NCBI RefSeq assembly: GCF_021183825.1
Contig: NZ_CP089211.1
Coordinates: 2,852,001-2,916,000 of the forward strand
Reading direction: 5' to 3'
Origin: Sinomicrobium kalidii
Lineage (GTDB): Bacteria > Bacteroidota > Bacteroidia > Flavobacteriales > Flavobacteriaceae
DNA length: 64,000 bases
The notes under the pieces were generated by a model, which was given only the letters and a program-made list of their open reading frames with translations, made no database searches and was not told the DNA's origin. Numbering within the stretch: the stretch's first letter is position 1; the number at the start of each line of letters is the position of its first letter. This document shows positions 39,178 through 48,918 of the stretch, piece by piece. The translations under genes and the position numbers were made by a program.

Positions 39178-39882
39178 ATGAAACCTAAAAAGAATCCAAA
39201 AGCCGATCTCACCAGGAATAGCGGCCTCTATTTTGCGATAGGGTTGGCTTTAGTGTTGTTTCTCACCTGGCGGGGTTTGGAGTGGAAAAAGTATGACAAG
39301 GATGAAGCATTCAATTATAAGATGGATGTAGATGAAGAACTGGAGGAAGAGATTCCGATTACGGAAATGCTGAAGACACCGCCGCCACCGCCACCGCCAC
39401 CGGCCGCTCCCGAAGAGATTGAAGTGGTTGAAGACGAAGAGGAAGTAGAGGAAACAGTGATAGAATCTACCGAAACCAGTCAGGATGAAGTGATCGAAGT
39501 GGAAGATGTTGAAGAGGTGGAAGAACCGGTAGATGTGGATGTACCTTTTGCGGTGATTGAAGACGTTCCTGTATTTCCCGGATGTGAAGATGCCAAGGAT
39601 AAAAGGGCTTGCTTCCAGGAAATGATGCAAAAACATATCCGTAAACACTTCCGTTACCCGGAAATCGCCCAGGAAATGGGTGTGCAAGGAAGGGTAGCAG
39701 TGATGTTTACCATAGATAAAGACGGAAGTATTACCAATATAAGAATGCGTGGACCGGATAAGAATCTGGAGAAAGAAGCGCAGCGGATCATAAGCAAACT
39801 GCCGAAAATGACCCCCGGAAAACAAAGGGGCAGAGCGGTAAGGGTTCCGTTTAGTATTCCGATTACTTTTAGGTTGCAATAA
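39178..39882 (+). CDS. energy transducer TonB, paralogue 1
   Basis: 234 aa. A cytoplasmic basic start (MKPKKNPKADL) leads to one membrane helix (about 17-34), an acidic linker, a proline run (68-75), a long Glu/Val-rich periplasmic spacer and a C-terminal TonB domain (about 150-234) with VFPGCED, HFRYPEIAQEMGVQGRV and VPFSIPITFRLQ. It should couple the ExbBD proton-motive force to TonB-dependent and SusC transporters. The spacer is far more acidic than in enterobacterial TonB. A paralogue with the same ends lies at 40695. Monocistronic with a strong terminator. Confidence 0.9.
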   Translation: MKPKKNPKADLTRNSGLYFAIGLALVLFLTWRGLEWKKYDKDEAFNYKMDVDEELEEEIPITEMLKTPPPPPPPPAAPEEIEVVEDEEEVEETVIESTETSQDEVIEVEDVEEVEEPVDVDVPFAVIEDVPVFPGCEDAKDKRACFQEMMQKHIRKHFRYPEIAQEMGVQGRVAVMFTIDKDGSITNIRMRGPDKNLEKEAQRIISKLPKMTPGKQRGRAVRVPFSIPITFRLQ

Positions 39883-40694: not shown

Positions 40695-41405
40695 ATGATA
40701 CCAAAGAAAAACCCGAAAGCCGACCTGGCCAGGAACAGCGGACTGTTCTTTGCCCTTGGCATGGCCGTTGTGCTGTTCCTTTCCTGGAAAGGGCTGGAAT
40801 GGAAAAAATACGATAAAAAGGAATTCGTTACCCCGGTAACCCCCGTTGAAGATTTTCCCGGGGAAAAAGAGGTCCCTGTAATTGACTTGAATACACCGCC
40901 CCCGCCACCACCGCCACCGGCTGTTATCCCTCCTGATTTTGAACCCGAAGATAATGATACGGAAAAGAAGGAATCCCCGATAATGTCTTCTGATGATGTC
41001 CTGGACGATCCGGTAGATATAGACGATATTCCGGTGACTGATGAGGTGAATCCCGATGAAACAATATCCATTACCCTCGTCGAGAACGTGCCGGTGTTCC
41101 CCGGCTGTGAAGATGCGGAGGACAAGTTGAAATGTTTCCAGGAAAAAATGATATCGCACGTGAGGAAGAATTTTCACTATCCCGAACCGGCACAGGAAAG
41201 AGGGATAGAAGGAAAGGTATATGTGGCTTTTATCATCGATAAGGAAGGTAATATTACCGGAGTGAAAATGCGGGGCCCGGATCAAAGCCTGGAAAAGGAA
41301 GCGGAACGCATAATTAACAAACTGCCGAAAATGACCCCGGGAAAACAAGGAAGCCGGGCGGTTCGTGTTCCCTTTAGTATTCCGATTACTTTTAAATTAC
41401 AATAA
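40695..41405 (+). CDS. energy transducer TonB, paralogue 2
   Basis: 236 aa, very similar to the gene at 39178 at both ends (MIPKKNPKADLARNSGL; VPFSIPITFKLQ) but with a different spacer. Membrane helix about 17-33, proline run 68-75, acidic spacer, then the TonB C-terminal domain with VFPGCEDAEDKLKCFQEKM and YPEPAQERGIEGKVY. The two cysteines in VFPGCED and KCFQ occur in both paralogues and could form a disulfide. Likely a tandem duplication that now serves different receptor sets. It is separated from copy 1 by repetitive intergenic DNA and has its own terminator. Confidence 0.9.
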   Translation: MIPKKNPKADLARNSGLFFALGMAVVLFLSWKGLEWKKYDKKEFVTPVTPVEDFPGEKEVPVIDLNTPPPPPPPPAVIPPDFEPEDNDTEKKESPIMSSDDVLDDPVDIDDIPVTDEVNPDETISITLVENVPVFPGCEDAEDKLKCFQEKMISHVRKNFHYPEPAQERGIEGKVYVAFIIDKEGNITGVKMRGPDQSLEKEAERIINKLPKMTPGKQGSRAVRVPFSIPITFKLQ

Positions 41406-41971: not shown

Positions 41972-43138
41972 ATGATGTTTTTTGATCCGCACGAAAGTTT
42001 TCTGATTATCGTGTCCGTTCTGGGGACTGCGATCTGTTTTAACCTGGCCTTGTATTTCGGTTATCACAAAAGGGCGGCCTATCTATTTTTTGCTTTTTAT
42101 TGCCTCTTTCACATTTTCAAGATTTATCTCAAGACCTTTCCGGAAGGAGAAAAGCTCGTCCCGTTCATTCCTCTTACGGCAGCACACTATATTTATCTTT
42201 CGGTTCTTCTGGGGATGTTGTCATTACAAATATTCCTGATGTATCATTTTGCCCTGCCGCATAAAAAATACAGTATCGCGGTTCTTTCGGGGATTACTTT
42301 CTTTTCCTTTTTCCTGTTGGAGGAAGGTGTTTATATAACCATCGGCCTGGGCATTGCACTTTTGCAAACTTTGTGGGCCTGGAGAAATAAAAGGGATGTC
42401 GGGGTTATTCTTGTCGGCGTCCTTGGCTTTTCCACCTGTGTTTTACTCCGGGGATTCGGATACATGCCGTATGGCTATTTTGTGGGGATCATTTTCTTTA
42501 TTTTCTGTATGTTTTTATCCGTCGGGATCGAACTTTCCAGGCAAAACCGGGAACACAAGCAGGCATTATTGCGGTCGTCCCGGCTGGAAAACCAGTTGCT
42601 CAAAAAAAGTATCCAGCCGCATTTCCTGTTCAACTCCTTAACTTCATTACAGGAACTTATTGAGACCGACCCGGTTAAAGCCGGTAATTTTGTAGATGAC
42701 CTGTCGGGAGAATTTGAGCTTTTTTCCAGGATAAGCCATAAAAAGCTCATAAGGATACGGGACGAACTGAAACTGATAAACCACTACCTGGGCATTATGG
42801 CCGTAAGGAAGAACATAAAATTTAATCTGGATACCGTAAACCTGGATGAGGCAGACCGCATTCCGCCCGGTGTTTTCCTGACACTCGTAGAGAATGGCAT
42901 TACACACGGCTATGAAAACGGGGAGACCGGAAACTTCAGAATAAGTAAAAAAGAGAGCAAGGCCTTCCGGCAGTATGAAGTGTTCAATGACGGGACAATT
43001 ACGGATAAAAATACTGCTCAAGGCATGGGGCTGCAATATGTGATCTCCAGGCTGGAAGAATCGTACGGTGAAAACTACGATTTCGTTTCTTCCCCCTGTT
43101 CCGGTGGCTGGGTGTCCGTGATAAAAATATTTTCATGA
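41972..43138 (+). CDS. LytS-type sensor histidine kinase
   Basis: 388 aa; M1 and M2 are both possible starts. Seven or so hydrophobic segments between residues 9 and 188 form a membrane sensor that resembles 7TM-type input modules. After a short coiled linker (190-212) the His_kinase domain carries His217 in QPHFLFNSLTSLQ, Asn308 in LVENGITHG and a GMGLQYVISRLEESYG lid. The response regulator gene overlaps by 4 bp (ATGA), so kinase and regulator are translationally coupled and should be partners. Input signal unknown. Confidence 0.9.
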   Translation: MMFFDPHESFLIIVSVLGTAICFNLALYFGYHKRAAYLFFAFYCLFHIFKIYLKTFPEGEKLVPFIPLTAAHYIYLSVLLGMLSLQIFLMYHFALPHKKYSIAVLSGITFFSFFLLEEGVYITIGLGIALLQTLWAWRNKRDVGVILVGVLGFSTCVLLRGFGYMPYGYFVGIIFFIFCMFLSVGIELSRQNREHKQALLRSSRLENQLLKKSIQPHFLFNSLTSLQELIETDPVKAGNFVDDLSGEFELFSRISHKKLIRIRDELKLINHYLGIMAVRKNIKFNLDTVNLDEADRIPPGVFLTLVENGITHGYENGETGNFRISKKESKAFRQYEVFNDGTITDKNTAQGMGLQYVISRLEESYGENYDFVSSPCSGGWVSVIKIFS

Positions 43139-43839
43139 TACGTATCCTGATCTGTGAAGACGAAGTGCTTATTTCCAACCGCCTGGCACGGTTTATCAGG
43201 GAAGTCATGTCCGGACCTGTACAGATAGACTGTGTGTATACCCTGGGAGAAACGGAAGAGTATTTAAACAACAGGAAAATCGATCTCCTTTTTCTCGATT
43301 TGAACCTGCACGGCAGGGACGGATATGAGGTCCTGGAAAAATTTGTGGCGGGGGCTTTCCATACCATTGTGGTTTCTGCCTATACCGACCGGGCCATAGA
43401 GGCTTTTGAGTACGGTGTCGTAGATTTTATAGGCAAACCTTTTAAAAAAGAACGCATAGCCAAAGCCATAAGCCGTTATCTCGAAGGAGTCCCTCCCGGC
43501 GAAAGAAACCTGAAACGCCTGGTAACCAAAGCGCGGAAAGGATTGGAATTTGTAGAAACAGCGAGTGTAAAGTACATAAAAGCTGCCGGTATTTATGCCG
43601 AACTTCACCTATTGAAGGGAGAGGCAAAACTATATGATAAACCCCTCAGCCAGTTGGCAAAAATATTGCCCGGGAATTTTTGCAGGGTACACAAGTCCTA
43701 TGTGGTGAATATGGAAAAAGTACGGGCAGTCCGGAAAAGTAAGCCCAATAGCTTTTTACTGATACTCAGGTCAGGAGAAGAAATACCGCTCAGCAGGAAC
43801 CGGAAAAAAGAGATCATCGAGCGCTTTTCGCTTCATTAA
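43135..43839 (+). CDS. LytTR-family response regulator
   Basis: 234 aa. Receiver domain 1-about 118 with the acidic pair in CEDE, phosphoacceptor Asp55 in LLFLDLNLHG and Lys101 in GKPF. The LytTR DNA-binding domain fills about 135-232 (VKYIKAAGIYAELHL, NFCRVHKSYVVNMEKV, IPLSRNRKKEI). It would be phosphorylated by the kinase encoded just upstream and bind direct-repeat promoters. Possible targets are not evident; the immediately following DNA is an aminotransferase remnant and two secreted-protein genes. Confidence 0.93.
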   Translation: MIRILICEDEVLISNRLARFIREVMSGPVQIDCVYTLGETEEYLNNRKIDLLFLDLNLHGRDGYEVLEKFVAGAFHTIVVSAYTDRAIEAFEYGVVDFIGKPFKKERIAKAISRYLEGVPPGERNLKRLVTKARKGLEFVETASVKYIKAAGIYAELHLLKGEAKLYDKPLSQLAKILPGNFCRVHKSYVVNMEKVRAVRKSKPNSFLLILRSGEEIPLSRNRKKEIIERFSLH

Positions 43840-44761: not shown

Positions 44762-45481
44762 ATGAGAAGAGTGATATTATTTTCGGTGTTTATGTGCATT
44801 ACTCTGGCCTCCGGTTATGCCCAAGGTAAGGTATTTGCCTTTTTTGAGTATGATATAAGGGAAGGAATGAAGGCGTCCTTTATAAACGGTTATGCCAAAG
44901 ACCTGGAATGGCAGCAATCACAAGGTGATGACTGGTGCTGGGCAGGCTGGTTTGTATTGAACGGGGATCGCCGGGGCCGTTTTATAGATGCCACCCCGGA
45001 TCACACCTGGAAAGATTTTGACAACTGGAAAATAGATGCTTCAGAAAATTCCCGTCATAACAGGATACACTGGCTGCCTTATGTGGAGAACCCTTCGGGG
45101 TCGTACAGGGAGGTTATGGAAAGGTATAGCAGTTATGCGAAGAAGTGGTATCGAAGCAAGTATTTACAGGTGTATTACATGCGGATGCATAGCGGAGAGG
45201 TCGCCGGATCAAATCAATTTCTGAGCGATCTGAAACCGCTGCTCGAAGATAAACTGCAGGGCAGGCCGTTTGTGTGGATGAAGACCGTTTCCGGGGGAGA
45301 CCCGGATACCTACCTGTTGTTTGTGGGGCTGAACAAGCTGGAAGACCTGCAACTTTGCAGTGAGCTGTTCCGGGAGTATTCTTCCGGAAAGGAGAACCAG
45401 GGGAAAAGGGCAGTAAAAGAAATAATATCGGAATTATGGGGATACAGCGATAAACTGAGTTTGTTTCCCGGCCGGAAATAA
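44762..45481 (+). CDS. secreted protein of unknown function
   Basis: 239 aa with a signal peptide (about 1-20, ending GYAQG). I do not recognise the family. The mature protein is rich in Trp and Tyr (DWCWAGWFVLNGD, DFDNWKIDA) and seems to contain two similar alpha-beta halves, FAFFEYDIREGMKASFINGY near the start and YLQVYYMRMHSGEVAGSNQF in the middle, which suggests a dimeric-ferredoxin-like double domain; this is only a visual impression. It is the last gene of the short run after the aminotransferase remnant and ends in a bidirectional terminator. Confidence 0.7.
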   Translation: MRRVILFSVFMCITLASGYAQGKVFAFFEYDIREGMKASFINGYAKDLEWQQSQGDDWCWAGWFVLNGDRRGRFIDATPDHTWKDFDNWKIDASENSRHNRIHWLPYVENPSGSYREVMERYSSYAKKWYRSKYLQVYYMRMHSGEVAGSNQFLSDLKPLLEDKLQGRPFVWMKTVSGGDPDTYLLFVGLNKLEDLQLCSELFREYSSGKENQGKRAVKEIISELWGYSDKLSLFPGRK

Positions 45482-45509
45482 AAAAGCCGGACTCATATTC
45501 CGGCTTTTT
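45481..45509. terminator. bidirectional terminator
   Basis: Perfect 11-bp stem AAAAAGCCGGA/TCCGGCTTTTT (45481-45491 and 45499-45509) overlaps the stop codon of the upstream gene and gives a T-tract on both strands, serving both convergent genes. Confidence 0.92.
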
Positions 45510-45525
45510 GTGATATGTTCCGGGA

Positions 45526-47295
45526 TTATTTCTGATTGTACGGGATGTAGTTCTCCCATTCCCAGGGTGTATAAGTGTCGGCCAGGGCCACTTCCAGGAG
45601 TTCTTTAAAGATGCTTTCACCGTTATCGCTGTTGGTCATCATCAGGATGCCTTGTCCCGTCTTTGGGAAAATGATAGAATAATGCTGAAAACCATCACCA
45701 TGCCCTTCTTTAAATGCTCCGGTCCCGTAAGGCGATTGTAACAGTCCCCAGCCCAGTCCATAGCTGAGGGAAATGTCGTCGTTTAATGTGGAATCCTTTT
45801 GTGATAGCGGACCAAATTGTCTTACGGACCGAATCCGTATCCGGGGAGTAAATATTTTATCCCGGGATGCCCTGGAAATAATTTTGTTTTGCAAAACGGC
45901 TTCCATGAATTTTGTATAGTCCTCCGGAGTGGTTTCCAGTGTACTCCCTCCTCTGGGTTCGTTGTCCTTGTCTTTTTTATACGGTTTTCCGCTGGGGGAA
46001 TGCCCGAAGGCAAATTCTTTTTCGAAGGAAGGCAGCCATTTGTAACTCGATCTTTTCATTTTAAGAGGAGTGAATATTTTTTCCCGAGCCAGTTCTTCCA
46101 GGCTCTTTCCCAAAAGTTTCTCAAGGACAACCTGTAAATAAACAAAGCCTTCACCGGAATAGCTGTAGCGGGTTCCGGGTTCAAAGTGAACCCTTAGTTT
46201 TTTATCTTCTTCAAACCAGCGCCAGTTTGGGAAGCCCGTGGTATGGGCAAGGCACATCCGGGCAGTGATCCCGGCGTATAACGTATCCGTTTGTAGATCG
46301 GAAAAATCGTCGTGCCTGGAAGTCCGGGGTTCGTATTGGAATATTTTCTTCGGAAGGCAGGATTCCAACGGAGTATCCAGGGCTATGACCTGTTCTTCGA
46401 CCAATTTCATTACAAGTATGGAAAACACAGCTTTGCTCAGGGAAGCCCCGTACATGTTTGTAGTATCGTGAAGTGGTAATTTCCGGGAGTAATCCCTGTA
46501 CCCGAAGGTCTTTTGATAGTGTTTGCGGTTATCGTTAAAAATGGTGACCGACATACCGTGTACTCCGGCATCTTCCATAAGTTGTTTTATTTTTGAGGTC
46601 AGGGAATCCCCGGAAATTACAGATCCGTCAAGGCGCGTAATATCAGTGTGATCGGGAGTACCTGTTTTGCATCCGCCCGTGCTGAATAAGAAGAACATTG
46701 CAATGATTGCGGCGCCATTAGCAGCTTTCTTTTTACCCGATTTCAGAAAGGGCAGGGATAAGGGGTAATAACATTTTTGATCCCTTACGGCAAACAGAAT
46801 GTTGATAACCATGACGATCACGGCATAGGGAATTATGGCCATAAACAGGAAGAAACCCCATTTTTCAACGGTAATTAATGCTATAAATGACAGGAAGAAC
46901 AAGATGGTCATGGTGATCTGGAAATTGACAATGGCCCTTCCGTGTATATCGTAAACCCGGTTATCTTCCCTTTTGTGAATCCACAAAAACAAGGGGAAAA
47001 GGATATTGCAAAGGGGAAGGACCATTCCCAGTACCGGAGTGCCGTGAAGCAACAACAACCATTTCTTTTGGATGGACTCCTGTTTGGGGTTTTCCAGGAT
47101 AATGAGATCATCAACCTCAATTTCCAGTGCCGATGCCAGTAATTTTACGGTTTGGAGATGTGGATTGACTTCTCCCTTTTCGATGCGCTGAATGGTACGT
47201 ACGGTAACTTTGGTTTTTTCGGAGAGTTCTTCCTGGGTGTATCCTTTTAATTTCCGTTGATAAACCAGGTTCCCGGCCAATGATGGATTTTCCAT
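45526..47295 (-). CDS. HTH (XRE) - DUF4870-like membrane - serine beta-lactamase-like fusion protein
   Basis: 589 aa in one uninterrupted frame. Residues 8-64 are a Cro/C1-type helix-turn-helix (YTQEELSEKTKVTVRTIQRIE). Residues 78-170 form a DUF4870/Tic20-like membrane module with three to four helices and RVYDIHGRAIVNFQ. A fourth or fifth hydrophobic segment (194-207) ends in FSTGGC (Cys209), which looks exactly like a lipoprotein signal inside the chain. From about 230 on comes a class C beta-lactamase/DD-peptidase-like domain with SLSK (Ser285, Lys288), a YSYSG motif (Tyr379; the usual Asn is Gly) and GHGDG (His532). Topology predicts DNA-binding domain inside, hydrolase outside. It may be a one-polypeptide sensor or two genes fused recently; both HTH-DUF4870 proteins and serine-hydrolase lipoproteins exist separately in relatives. 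Confidence 0.85.
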   Translation of the reverse strand: MENPSLAGNLVYQRKLKGYTQEELSEKTKVTVRTIQRIEKGEVNPHLQTVKLLASALEIEVDDLIILENPKQESIQKKWLLLLHGTPVLGMVLPLCNILFPLFLWIHKREDNRVYDIHGRAIVNFQITMTILFFLSFIALITVEKWGFFLFMAIIPYAVIVMVINILFAVRDQKCYYPLSLPFLKSGKKKAANGAAIIAMFFLFSTGGCKTGTPDHTDITRLDGSVISGDSLTSKIKQLMEDAGVHGMSVTIFNDNRKHYQKTFGYRDYSRKLPLHDTTNMYGASLSKAVFSILVMKLVEEQVIALDTPLESCLPKKIFQYEPRTSRHDDFSDLQTDTLYAGITARMCLAHTTGFPNWRWFEEDKKLRVHFEPGTRYSYSGEGFVYLQVVLEKLLGKSLEELAREKIFTPLKMKRSSYKWLPSFEKEFAFGHSPSGKPYKKDKDNEPRGGSTLETTPEDYTKFMEAVLQNKIISRASRDKIFTPRIRIRSVRQFGPLSQKDSTLNDDISLSYGLGWGLLQSPYGTGAFKEGHGDGFQHYSIIFPKTGQGILMMTNSDNGESIFKELLEVALADTYTPWEWENYIPYNQK

Positions 47296-48039
47296 GATAT
47301 GCGTTGTTTGTTTTGGACAAAGCTATGAAGAGGCTCTTGTTTTTAGCACGACATATCCGTGTCATGTACCTGTCATTTGAGGTGTAATGTGTTGTAGAAG
47401 ATAAAGATATAGAAAATGAAGGCGTTTTTACGCAGGATTTTTTGCTTTATGGCAATTTTTCTTTCTGTGCACAGGCAATGCAAATTTTGCCCGTCTCACA
47501 ATTTTTAATTCTTACATCTTATTATAGTCATAGATCATAGGTTTTACATCGGCTCAATCCTAAAAGTTGTGGACATTGTTGGTGTTCAGACGTCAACAGG
47601 ACATAAGAGGTACGACCTGCGATTTATGATATGGTCCCTTTTTGTTACAGGTTTGTACTAACCTCAATTGAGAGTCATTTATTGCAGCCCTTGAGTAGTA
47701 TAAAAAATTATAGTCTTGTTGCTGGGTTAACAGGTTAACGACAGGTTATTGAGTTCATGCGTGATGTCCAAATAAATAAATAGCTGAAATACAATTTAAT
47801 AGCCTGAAAAAACCACTGTACCTTTCAGTACAGTGTGGTTTGGTTTTTAGTAAAAGGAGTCATGAAACCGGAAACGATCCCGGGTTTACGATGTATCGGC
47901 CTCACATACAACATTCAGTCAAAAAACATTTGTGTATGCGTGGCGAAACCAAAACCGGAAACTTACAACAAACGAAAAACCCCACAACCTTTGCCTCCTG
48001 ATCCCTTACATCTCATATCTGAAATCCGTTTTTAAAGCA
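47296..48039. other. 744-bp non-coding region with degraded repeats
   Basis: No gene supported. Near 47553-47640 there is a weak inverted relative of the 103-bp repeat (CTCAATCCTAAAAGTTGTGG). An imperfect hairpin AACCACTGTA/TACAGTG(TG)GTT lies at 47811-47832 with T-tracts on both sides. The piece TCTCATATCTGAAATC at 48011-48026 matches the core of the same repeat. Confidence 0.45.
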
Positions 48040-48267: not shown

Positions 48268-48768
48268 TTACTGCTTAACTTCACTGGCCTGATAAATATC
48301 TTCTTCTGCTTTATATATTTTGAATTGCACATCATATTCTTCCGGGACATAGATGACGATGGGTAATTTCCCGTTGTACCTTACCATTTCAGGTTGGGCA
48401 GAAATAAATTGACGTACTGTTTTCTTATCAAGACAGGCCATTTGGGTAGATATGACATTTCCTTCGGTCTTGAAAATATAATAATTATACCCCCAACCCT
48501 GTAAGTCCTTTTTTTCTAAGGTACCTTGAAGACCGTGTTTGTTACAAGCGTCTACCTGTATCCATTTTCCGACGGTGAATTCTATTTTCTTATTGGTATC
48601 CTTATCGGAATAAGGAACTTCGATCACCATTTGCTTAAATCCTTTTTCAGGTTTGGGGTAAATAGATAAATCGGTTTTTGTTATGGATGATTGTCCCATA
48701 GCTATGGAGCTCAAGCACAAAAGTGCGACTAAAAATAAACCGGTTTGCTTAAATGCTACTGCTTTCAT
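48268..48768 (-). CDS. eco: ecotin-type serine protease inhibitor
   Basis: 166 aa from ATG 48768; an ATG seven codons earlier is less likely because the signal peptide (MKAVAFKQTGLFLVALLCLS, ending AMGQ) starts here. The mature protein aligns with ecotin throughout: YPKPEKGFKQMVIEVP, LEKKDLQGWGYNYYIF, STQMACLDKK, MVRYNGKLPIVIYVPEEYDV and KAEEDIY. Cys75 and Cys112 correspond to the ecotin disulfide. Ecotin is a periplasmic dimer that blocks trypsin-fold proteases. The reactive-site P1 residue, Met84 in E. coli, is Gln109 here, which should change the protease range. It stands alone between two tRNA genes. Confidence 0.92.
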   Translation of the reverse strand: MKAVAFKQTGLFLVALLCLSSIAMGQSSITKTDLSIYPKPEKGFKQMVIEVPYSDKDTNKKIEFTVGKWIQVDACNKHGLQGTLEKKDLQGWGYNYYIFKTEGNVISTQMACLDKKTVRQFISAQPEMVRYNGKLPIVIYVPEEYDVQFKIYKAEEDIYQASEVKQ

Positions 48769-48918
48769 GATAACTGAGTTTTTACACATCCTACCAAAAC
48801 CTATACCAAAATAGAAGGTTCCTTCGTTTGTTTTCCGAAAATTGTTCCCGATCCTTGACCCGTTTATTGGCTTATTTTATAAGAAAAATCCATTTTTTTC
48901 ACGGAAAGCCCCGGGGTA

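Follow-up and report, generated by a model that had tools for sequence, protein, structure and literature searches.

Membrane-bound one-component regulators, such as CadC and ToxR, and polyproteins with an internal signal peptide, such as the Bradyrhizobium FbcH cytochrome b/c1, are known in principle. The HOTT (DUF4870) family has been described as a group of distant Tic20 homologues with a reentrant helix and two membrane helices, and was called completely uncharacterized in that account (PMC11628618). In Sinomicrobium kalidii, a HOTT domain is found in the middle of a long protein encoded within a 64,000-nucleotide stretch of contig NZ_CP089211.1 (positions 2,852,001 to 2,916,000; referred to as the window below). 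The comparisons reported here suggest that in many marine bacteria a single gene of this kind encodes one chain composed of a predicted membrane-anchored DNA-binding protein and an exported enzyme. We consider it probable that the chain is cut by signal peptidase II into two proteins and that the regulator half binds three TGWCR repeats spaced by 11 bp and controls the gene. The features of the locus, in window coordinates, are:

45480 to 45509, no strand assigned: hairpin with A/T tails, likely a terminator shared between convergent genes (by eye)
45526 to 47295, minus strand: single open reading frame of 589 amino acids plus stop, with XRE HTH, DUF4870/HOTT domain, internal signal peptide and serine hydrolase
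45610 to 46596, minus strand: PF00144 serine hydrolase domain, residues 234-562, with S285-x-x-K288 and Y379-S-G-E (Pfam E 7.2e-46)
46669 to 46728, minus strand: predicted internal signal peptide, residues 190-209, with lipobox-like FSTGGC (predicted cut before Cys209), from the comparison of type-A fusions
46744 to 47070, minus strand: DUF4870 (HOTT, Tic20-like) membrane domain, residues 76-184 (Pfam E 2.2e-20; a helix pair and two long helices in the AlphaFold2 model)
47104 to 47259, minus strand: HTH_3 (XRE) domain, residues 13-64 (Pfam E 3.9e-14; helices in the AlphaFold2 model)
47318 to 47325, minus strand: TAGCTTTG, a match to the -7 box TAnnTTTG whose TTTG starts 32 nt after the start of the third repeat
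47349 to 47375, minus strand: candidate operator TGACA-N6-TGACA-N6-TGTCG, the sole exact copy in the genome, kept in related promoters

The initial annotation, made from the sequence of the window, had described one continuous frame of 589 codons that joins an XRE HTH, a DUF4870-like membrane module and a serine hydrolase. This description stands, and the strand can be added to it: the frame runs on the minus strand from an ATG at 47295, the plus-strand frame over the same interval being full of stops. Pfam places all three domains in their families, with 52.9 bits for PF01381 (HTH_3; cut-off 23), 73.1 bits for PF09685 (DUF4870; cut-off 25) and 157.3 bits for PF00144 (cut-off 27), the latter together with the S-x-x-K and Tyr residues. 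The positions given earlier for FSTGGC (204-209), SLSK (285-288), Tyr379 and Y-S-G (379-381) were all correct. None of the NCBIfam models scored above its cut-off against the regulator part.

The AlphaFold2 model of the fusion, based on a 38-row alignment, had a mean pLDDT of 89.6 and a pTM of 0.66, the latter making the placement of the domains unreliable. Downstream of the HTH, the model contains a two-part helix (70-91/96-108), helices 113-142 and 146-172, and a 16-residue helix 191-206. The first three correspond, in this predicted model, to a reentrant helix followed by two membrane helices, and the proposed topology, with DNA binding inside and hydrolase outside, fits the predicted helices. 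The sole segment of at least three residues with pLDDT below 50 is 207-214, where the putative cut site lies.

Several features surround the gene. The hairpin behind it has a loop of 9 and is absent from the program's list, whose loop limit is 8. The next gene upstream (48268-48789, minus strand) encodes an ecotin-family protein (PF03974). Farther away, a tandem pair of similar TonB-like proline-rich proteins (39178-39882 and 40695-41405) has behind it two genes that resemble a sensor kinase and a LytTR-type response regulator (41972-43839), all named by eye.

Residues S285, K288, Y379, S380 and E382 of the hydrolase are invariant in the 38-row alignment. The replacement of Asn by Gly in the Tyr-x-Asn motif, pointed out earlier, is seen in most rows, residue 381 being G in 35 and N in 3. 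His532, which had been named along with SLSK and Tyr379, is an unsafe catalytic assignment, since H is present in just 26 of the 38 rows. The best match among solved structures, both by sequence and by fold, is 2qmi. The domain belongs to PF00144, and its best structural matches are 2qmi and AmpC; the name "class C beta-lactamase" was rejected, the NCBIfam class C model scoring 54.3 bits, far below its cut-off of 415.

A scan of GTDB species genomes retrieved at least 523 stretches encoding a relative, of which the best 80 loci were kept. A locus was considered fused when the match extended from before residue 70 to beyond residue 400 in one frame; 46 of these best 80 loci (from at least 523) are fused, 44 being of type A and 2 gammaproteobacterial. 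Together with the S. kalidii copy and five further loci, this gives 50 distinct type-A copies from at least three families, 48 of them uninterrupted, with frame changes near one end in the other two (L079 and L072). Among 199 genomes of the family, nearly all from different genera, the whole architecture was found in at least eight, S. kalidii included (a lower bound, with the six best candidates scored per genome). In two more of these genomes (G177 and G101), the same regulator is joined to another hydrolase. Owners of the fusion include Aquimarina, Maribacter, Leptobacterium, Arenibacter, Galbibacter, Salinimicrobium, Christiangramia, Allomuricauda, Marivirga and Xanthovirga.

The fusion was initially thought to be a recent joining of two neighbouring genes. 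The joining itself is borne out by loci in which regulator and hydrolase are separate neighbours (L083, L084, L085, L093, L096, L133 and L134). The age is not: the fusion is common to Flavobacteriaceae, Marivirgaceae and Fulvivirgaceae, and since identity to the S. kalidii copy falls to 47-48%, it is old. Its distribution is patchy, with no full-length fusion in the sole other sampled congener, G094, and at least five label changes are needed to account for type A on the regulator tree, which is unrooted and poorly resolved at its base. Two decaying copies were also seen. In Aquimarina algiphila (L087:3001-3800), the regulator ends at the old junction, with hydrolase-like remnants behind it; in G037 (L152:2332-1900), the array and the -7 box precede a broken first part of the regulator.

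We next consider the junction. Standalone regulators carry a PFL motif in 34 of 37 cases and end 2-9 residues beyond it. In the fusions, the signal begins where the standalone regulators end: after the PFL motif come a run of basic residues, a hydrophobic core of short length and then a cut site. The S. kalidii junction has the basic n-region, the hydrophobic core and Cys209, its lipobox, S-T-G-G-C, being atypical at -3. A lipobox-like Cys is present in 41 of the 50 type-A fusions, in agreement with the lipoprotein-like signal noticed at first. When 52 distinct fused proteins (the 50 of type A plus gammaproteobacterial L088 and L090) were sorted with regular expressions, 41 junctions were lipobox-like by a permissive pattern (Cys after A, G, S or N), 8 were SPase I/Q-rule-like, and 3 were neither (L045, L088 and L090, the last of which, by eye, would be cut between ASA and S). 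Eight of the lipobox-like copies have Asn at -1, which is outside the usual lipobox. Eight of the nine type-A copies without Cys have [AGS]Q (Salinimicrobium catena has a copy of this Q type), the remaining one, L045, being without a clear substitute; according to the Q-rule described for Bacteroidetes, SPase I substrates expose Gln after cleavage (PMC5837995). The junctions of L091 and L088 have a hydrophobic segment and no clear cut site.

Every n-region of the fused proteins has at least two basic residues, and Met occurs within it in only four rows, which makes a general second start unlikely; a second translation start for the hydrolase was accordingly dropped as a candidate. Where the two genes are separate, an N-terminal signal was recognised by eye on the hydrolase itself. 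Regardless of class, the junction resembles a signal peptide, and the fact that the class changes yet a signal peptide is kept would point to selection for cleavage rather than tethering.

What follows the junction is exchangeable. In gammaproteobacterial L088 and L090, the regulator is 60-64% identical to that of S. kalidii, and the hydrolase 18-22% over about 250 residues. The cargo of L021 and L023 is another PF00144 protein behind a junction that is lipobox-like by eye, and that of L091 is a DJ-1/PfpI domain, with a separate PF00144 gene behind it. Judging from these sequences, the regulator module travels with different passengers.

The candidate operator, which the initial annotation had passed over, consists of repeats at 47375-47371, 47364-47360 and 47353-47349 (minus strand) and ends 53 bp before the ATG. 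Its exact form occurs once in the 5.36-Mb S. kalidii genome; with two mismatches allowed, there were 2 matches versus 9 for a reversed control, so that only the exact form is specific. A regulon in the same genome beyond this gene was rejected on these counts. When 45 type-A promoters were aligned on the array, 40 of them had all 15 repeat positions and 5 had 14 of 15, the flanking positions mostly drifting. Five further fused loci have three repeats as well (L013, L014 and L016), with one changed base in L012 and L017. Taking S. kalidii and the 46 fused loci together, three strict repeats are present in 42 and at least two in all 47, as compared to means of 0.0 strict triples and 0.14 occurrences of at least two repeats in 100 mononucleotide shuffles.

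With repeats defined as TG[ATG]C[AG], at least three of them at an 11-bp period were found no more than 260 bp upstream in 77 of the 80 loci (the best 80 of at least 523), the exceptions being L073, which keeps 14 of 15 positions, L098 and L101. Elsewhere in those loci, 573,548 bp searched on both strands contained no array; six hits were the same sites re-read on the opposite strand. TGACA/TGTCA is readable on both strands, and the half-sites may therefore point either way. Related loci share ancestry and are not independent, so the locus counts overstate the number of independent events. A stricter pattern retrieved 21 sites in 20 of the 199 family genomes versus 1 for the reversed control. 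Sixteen of the 21 are located at most 150 bp upstream of a subfamily member, which in one case is a fragment at a contig end; one lies before an operon that holds a subfamily regulator (G125), and one before a decayed regulator copy whose first codons are still readable (G037). Viewed from the genes, 16 of the 22 subfamily members have a strict site, and variant arrays are present at five of the remaining six (G018, G009, G007, G135 and G154; the sixth is G156).

The other three strict sites (G013:C18:368114, G118:C1:21073 and G021:C1:2681235) lie away from such regulators and resemble each other (TGACAGARTGATGACAN6TGACG); the G013 site is beside a gene that by eye resembles a mobile-element primase. 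A second HTH-HOTT gene of S. kalidii, at about 2.358 Mb and 37% identical over the first part, has a diverged triple, TGACG-N6-TGTCG-N6-TGACA, followed by TAGCTTTG (L002:1400-1426). In L162 (1074-1122, minus strand), five consecutive TGTCG/TGTCA repeats at an 11-bp period separate an HTH-HOTT gene from one that resembles a serine hydrolase, and in G284, from another class of the phylum, a TGTCG triple array lies between tandem HTH-HOTT genes (L143:1309-2706).

Loci in which the two genes are separate indicate what the array may control. A selected sample of 19 same-strand neighbouring regulator/hydrolase pairs (seven Pedobacter-like and twelve more distant) was searched up to 130 bp upstream of the hydrolase and 200 bp upstream of the regulator. 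An array of at least two repeats precedes the hydrolase in 18 of the 19 pairs (at least three repeats in 15) and the regulator in none of 18 (one regulator start was uncalled); the L122 pair has no array. We conclude from this distribution that the hydrolase gene is the most likely target. In a divergent arrangement (L086:2110-2929), a TGTCG triple array lies between a regulator with 37% identity and a hydrolase. In L125 and L091, where a separate hydrolase follows the fused gene, that hydrolase lacks an array, and no array of three was found at seventeen other hydrolase loci taken from protein searches (L003-L010, L018-L020 and L034-L039), one of which, L036, belongs to the two-repeat pair L160 as its hydrolase. 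By eye, standalone HTH-HOTT regulators adjoin Rce1-like (CPBP) protease-like membrane proteins (L025:2088-3552, L026-L033 and L151), with PF02517 confirmed by Pfam for both L025 genes (the only locus so scanned), and a gyrB-like gene follows in L026, L027 and L031.

The array also mostly keeps its position relative to the promoter. In Flavobacterium psychrophilum, the -7 box reads TAnnTTTG and spans -12 to -5 (PMC9723704), and a match to it is located at an identical distance from the array in 43 of the 45 type-A promoters. TTTG at -33 was found in none of the 45, and TTG at -33 in three. The phase distance was measured between the start of the last repeat and the TTTG within an NAnnTTTG match. 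In 49 fused loci with any cargo, it is 32 nt in 35, 31 nt in one and 21 nt in nine four-repeat promoters, leaving four without a score (L042, L074, L088 and L090). Of 26 standalone loci, 20 have 32 nt; five gammaproteobacterial ones have no match, and L098 lacks an array. Among the 18 array-bearing pairs, the distance is 32-33 nt in four, 41-44 nt in eleven and both in L134; the sole distance in L154, 23 nt, does not fit, and L093 has no match. Most steps between phase distances equal one helical turn. These distances would put the repeats near -62, -51 and -40, all facing the same side of the helix. Since the array ends near -36, stands in constant helical phase with the -7 box and is not accompanied by TTTG at -33, the regulator is more likely to activate than to repress, as far as promoter sequences can tell.

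Repression by the regulator half of a cleaved polyprotein, with the array abutting the -33 region and being vacated on signal, is in our opinion unlikely, though it deserves serious attention. XRE proteins are often repressors, the HTH has a weak, sub-threshold similarity to models of the repressors RstR and DicA, the array does end at about -36, and the phase is compatible with this reading, if less suggestive of it. A distance to the -7 box that is mostly fixed at 32 nt, or differs by one turn, nevertheless suits an activator better, as the lack of TTTG at -33 in 45 promoters better suits an activator-dependent promoter. The initial annotation had drawn a parallel with BlaR1/MecR1, which would mean that the chain stays whole and that the outer hydrolase is a tethered sensor signalling to the inner HTH. 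A serine acyl-enzyme fold and an HTH do share one chain here, with S-x-x-K and Tyr invariant in 38 rows. We find such a sensor quite improbable, because the junction, which keeps signal-peptide features of either class, looks cleavable and would separate the halves, and because Pfam finds in the protein neither an M56 peptidase nor a sensor of the transpeptidase type nor an HTH of the BlaI type. The hydrolases of separate-gene loci, with the array before them and a signal of their own (by eye), argue against it too, as do the loci whose cargo is a PfpI domain or a hydrolase that is unrelated.

We see a slim chance that some other protein recognises the array, which would then simply accompany these genes. 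The pairing of array and regulator comes from sequence comparison, three pattern sites lie apart from such regulator genes, and regulators of other families also use arrays of direct repeats. Against this, the array accompanies this regulator family across Bacteroidota and gammaproteobacteria, and more distant HOTT regulators, L002 included, have diverged arrays of the same period. A recently lost stop or a sequencing artefact, about which the initial annotation had warned, would agree with congener G094 having no full-length fusion; its probability is now practically nil, fifty distinct type-A fusions, 48 of them uninterrupted, having already refuted it, and the recurrence of the same uninterrupted frame in dozens of independent assemblies excluding an artefact.

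We return to the cleaved chain with an activating regulator. In this scheme, the HTH would stay cytoplasmic, and the HOTT helices would set the signal peptide in an N-in/C-out orientation. Lgt and LspA (SPase I in the Gln-type copies) would then release the hydrolase as a periplasm-facing lipoprotein or a soluble enzyme, the regulator half being left in the inner membrane after the cut. Regulators may sit side by side on one DNA face, one HTH per turn, and would more likely activate than repress the hydrolase gene, the HOTT domain presumably sensing the signal. A cut chain whose regulator acts on the array of its own gene would make the fused form a one-gene autoregulated unit, with regulator and target enzyme produced in a fixed ratio. 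In a broader and more tentative reading, one to which we give somewhat less than even confidence, HTH-HOTT proteins would constitute a so far undescribed class of transcription factors that sit in the inner membrane, read 11-bp-phased arrays with one HTH per turn and switch on an exported hydrolase; they would have been repeatedly fused with their cargo into a polyprotein cut by signal peptidase, the regulator being freed only after its own enzyme is exported.

The widespread, uncharacterized DUF4870/HOTT family would thereby receive its first candidates for a function, for a target gene and for a DNA site, and bacteria a candidate case in which one precursor contains both a regulator and the exported enzyme that it targets. 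Since the predictions for the operator, the target and the cleavage site are precise to single bases or residues, each step is directly testable. A phased array read by a membrane-bound factor, if true, would offer a tractable model for transcription at the membrane.

No paper on the combination, the HOTT anchor or the phased array was found among the matches listed from one open-licence collection, as judged by titles and the starts of abstracts. The middle domain is the same as HOTT/DUF4870 by Pfam, and the AlphaFold2 helices fit the layout described for that family; here, the same chain also contains a DNA-binding domain, for which there is a candidate operator, whereas the terms "HTH" and "helix-turn-helix" are absent from the main text of the description (PMC11628618). 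The hydrolase has in common with class C beta-lactamases, DD-peptidases and Pab87-like serine hydrolases (PF00144) the fold and the S-x-x-K and Y-x-[GN] motifs, but its identity to AmpC entries is about 16-21%, and the third motif is unconserved in the fusion family.

As in BlaR1/MecR1, a control function and a serine acyl-enzyme fold are encoded in one reading frame. Membership in that group was rejected on domains, no M56 zinc metalloprotease being found by the Pfam scan. The BlaR1/MecR1 sensor is of the transpeptidase/class D type, whereas PF00144, with 2qmi and AmpC as the best structural matches, is present here; BlaR1/MecR1 work with a separate BlaI/MecI repressor, and the HTH seen here, an HTH_3, is part of the same chain; and only the 589-residue fusion has a cleavable-looking signal between its halves. 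In CadC and ToxR, the DNA-binding domain is fixed to the inner membrane, as is predicted here, but that domain is of the winged OmpR type, as opposed to an XRE HTH on a polytopic HOTT anchor, and the exported part is kept as a sensor, while here it is likely released. Polyproteins of the FbcH type share with this gene a single open reading frame, an internal signal peptide and two expected products. The difference is that here one product likely regulates transcription of the other, and that the signal is mostly of the lipoprotein class.
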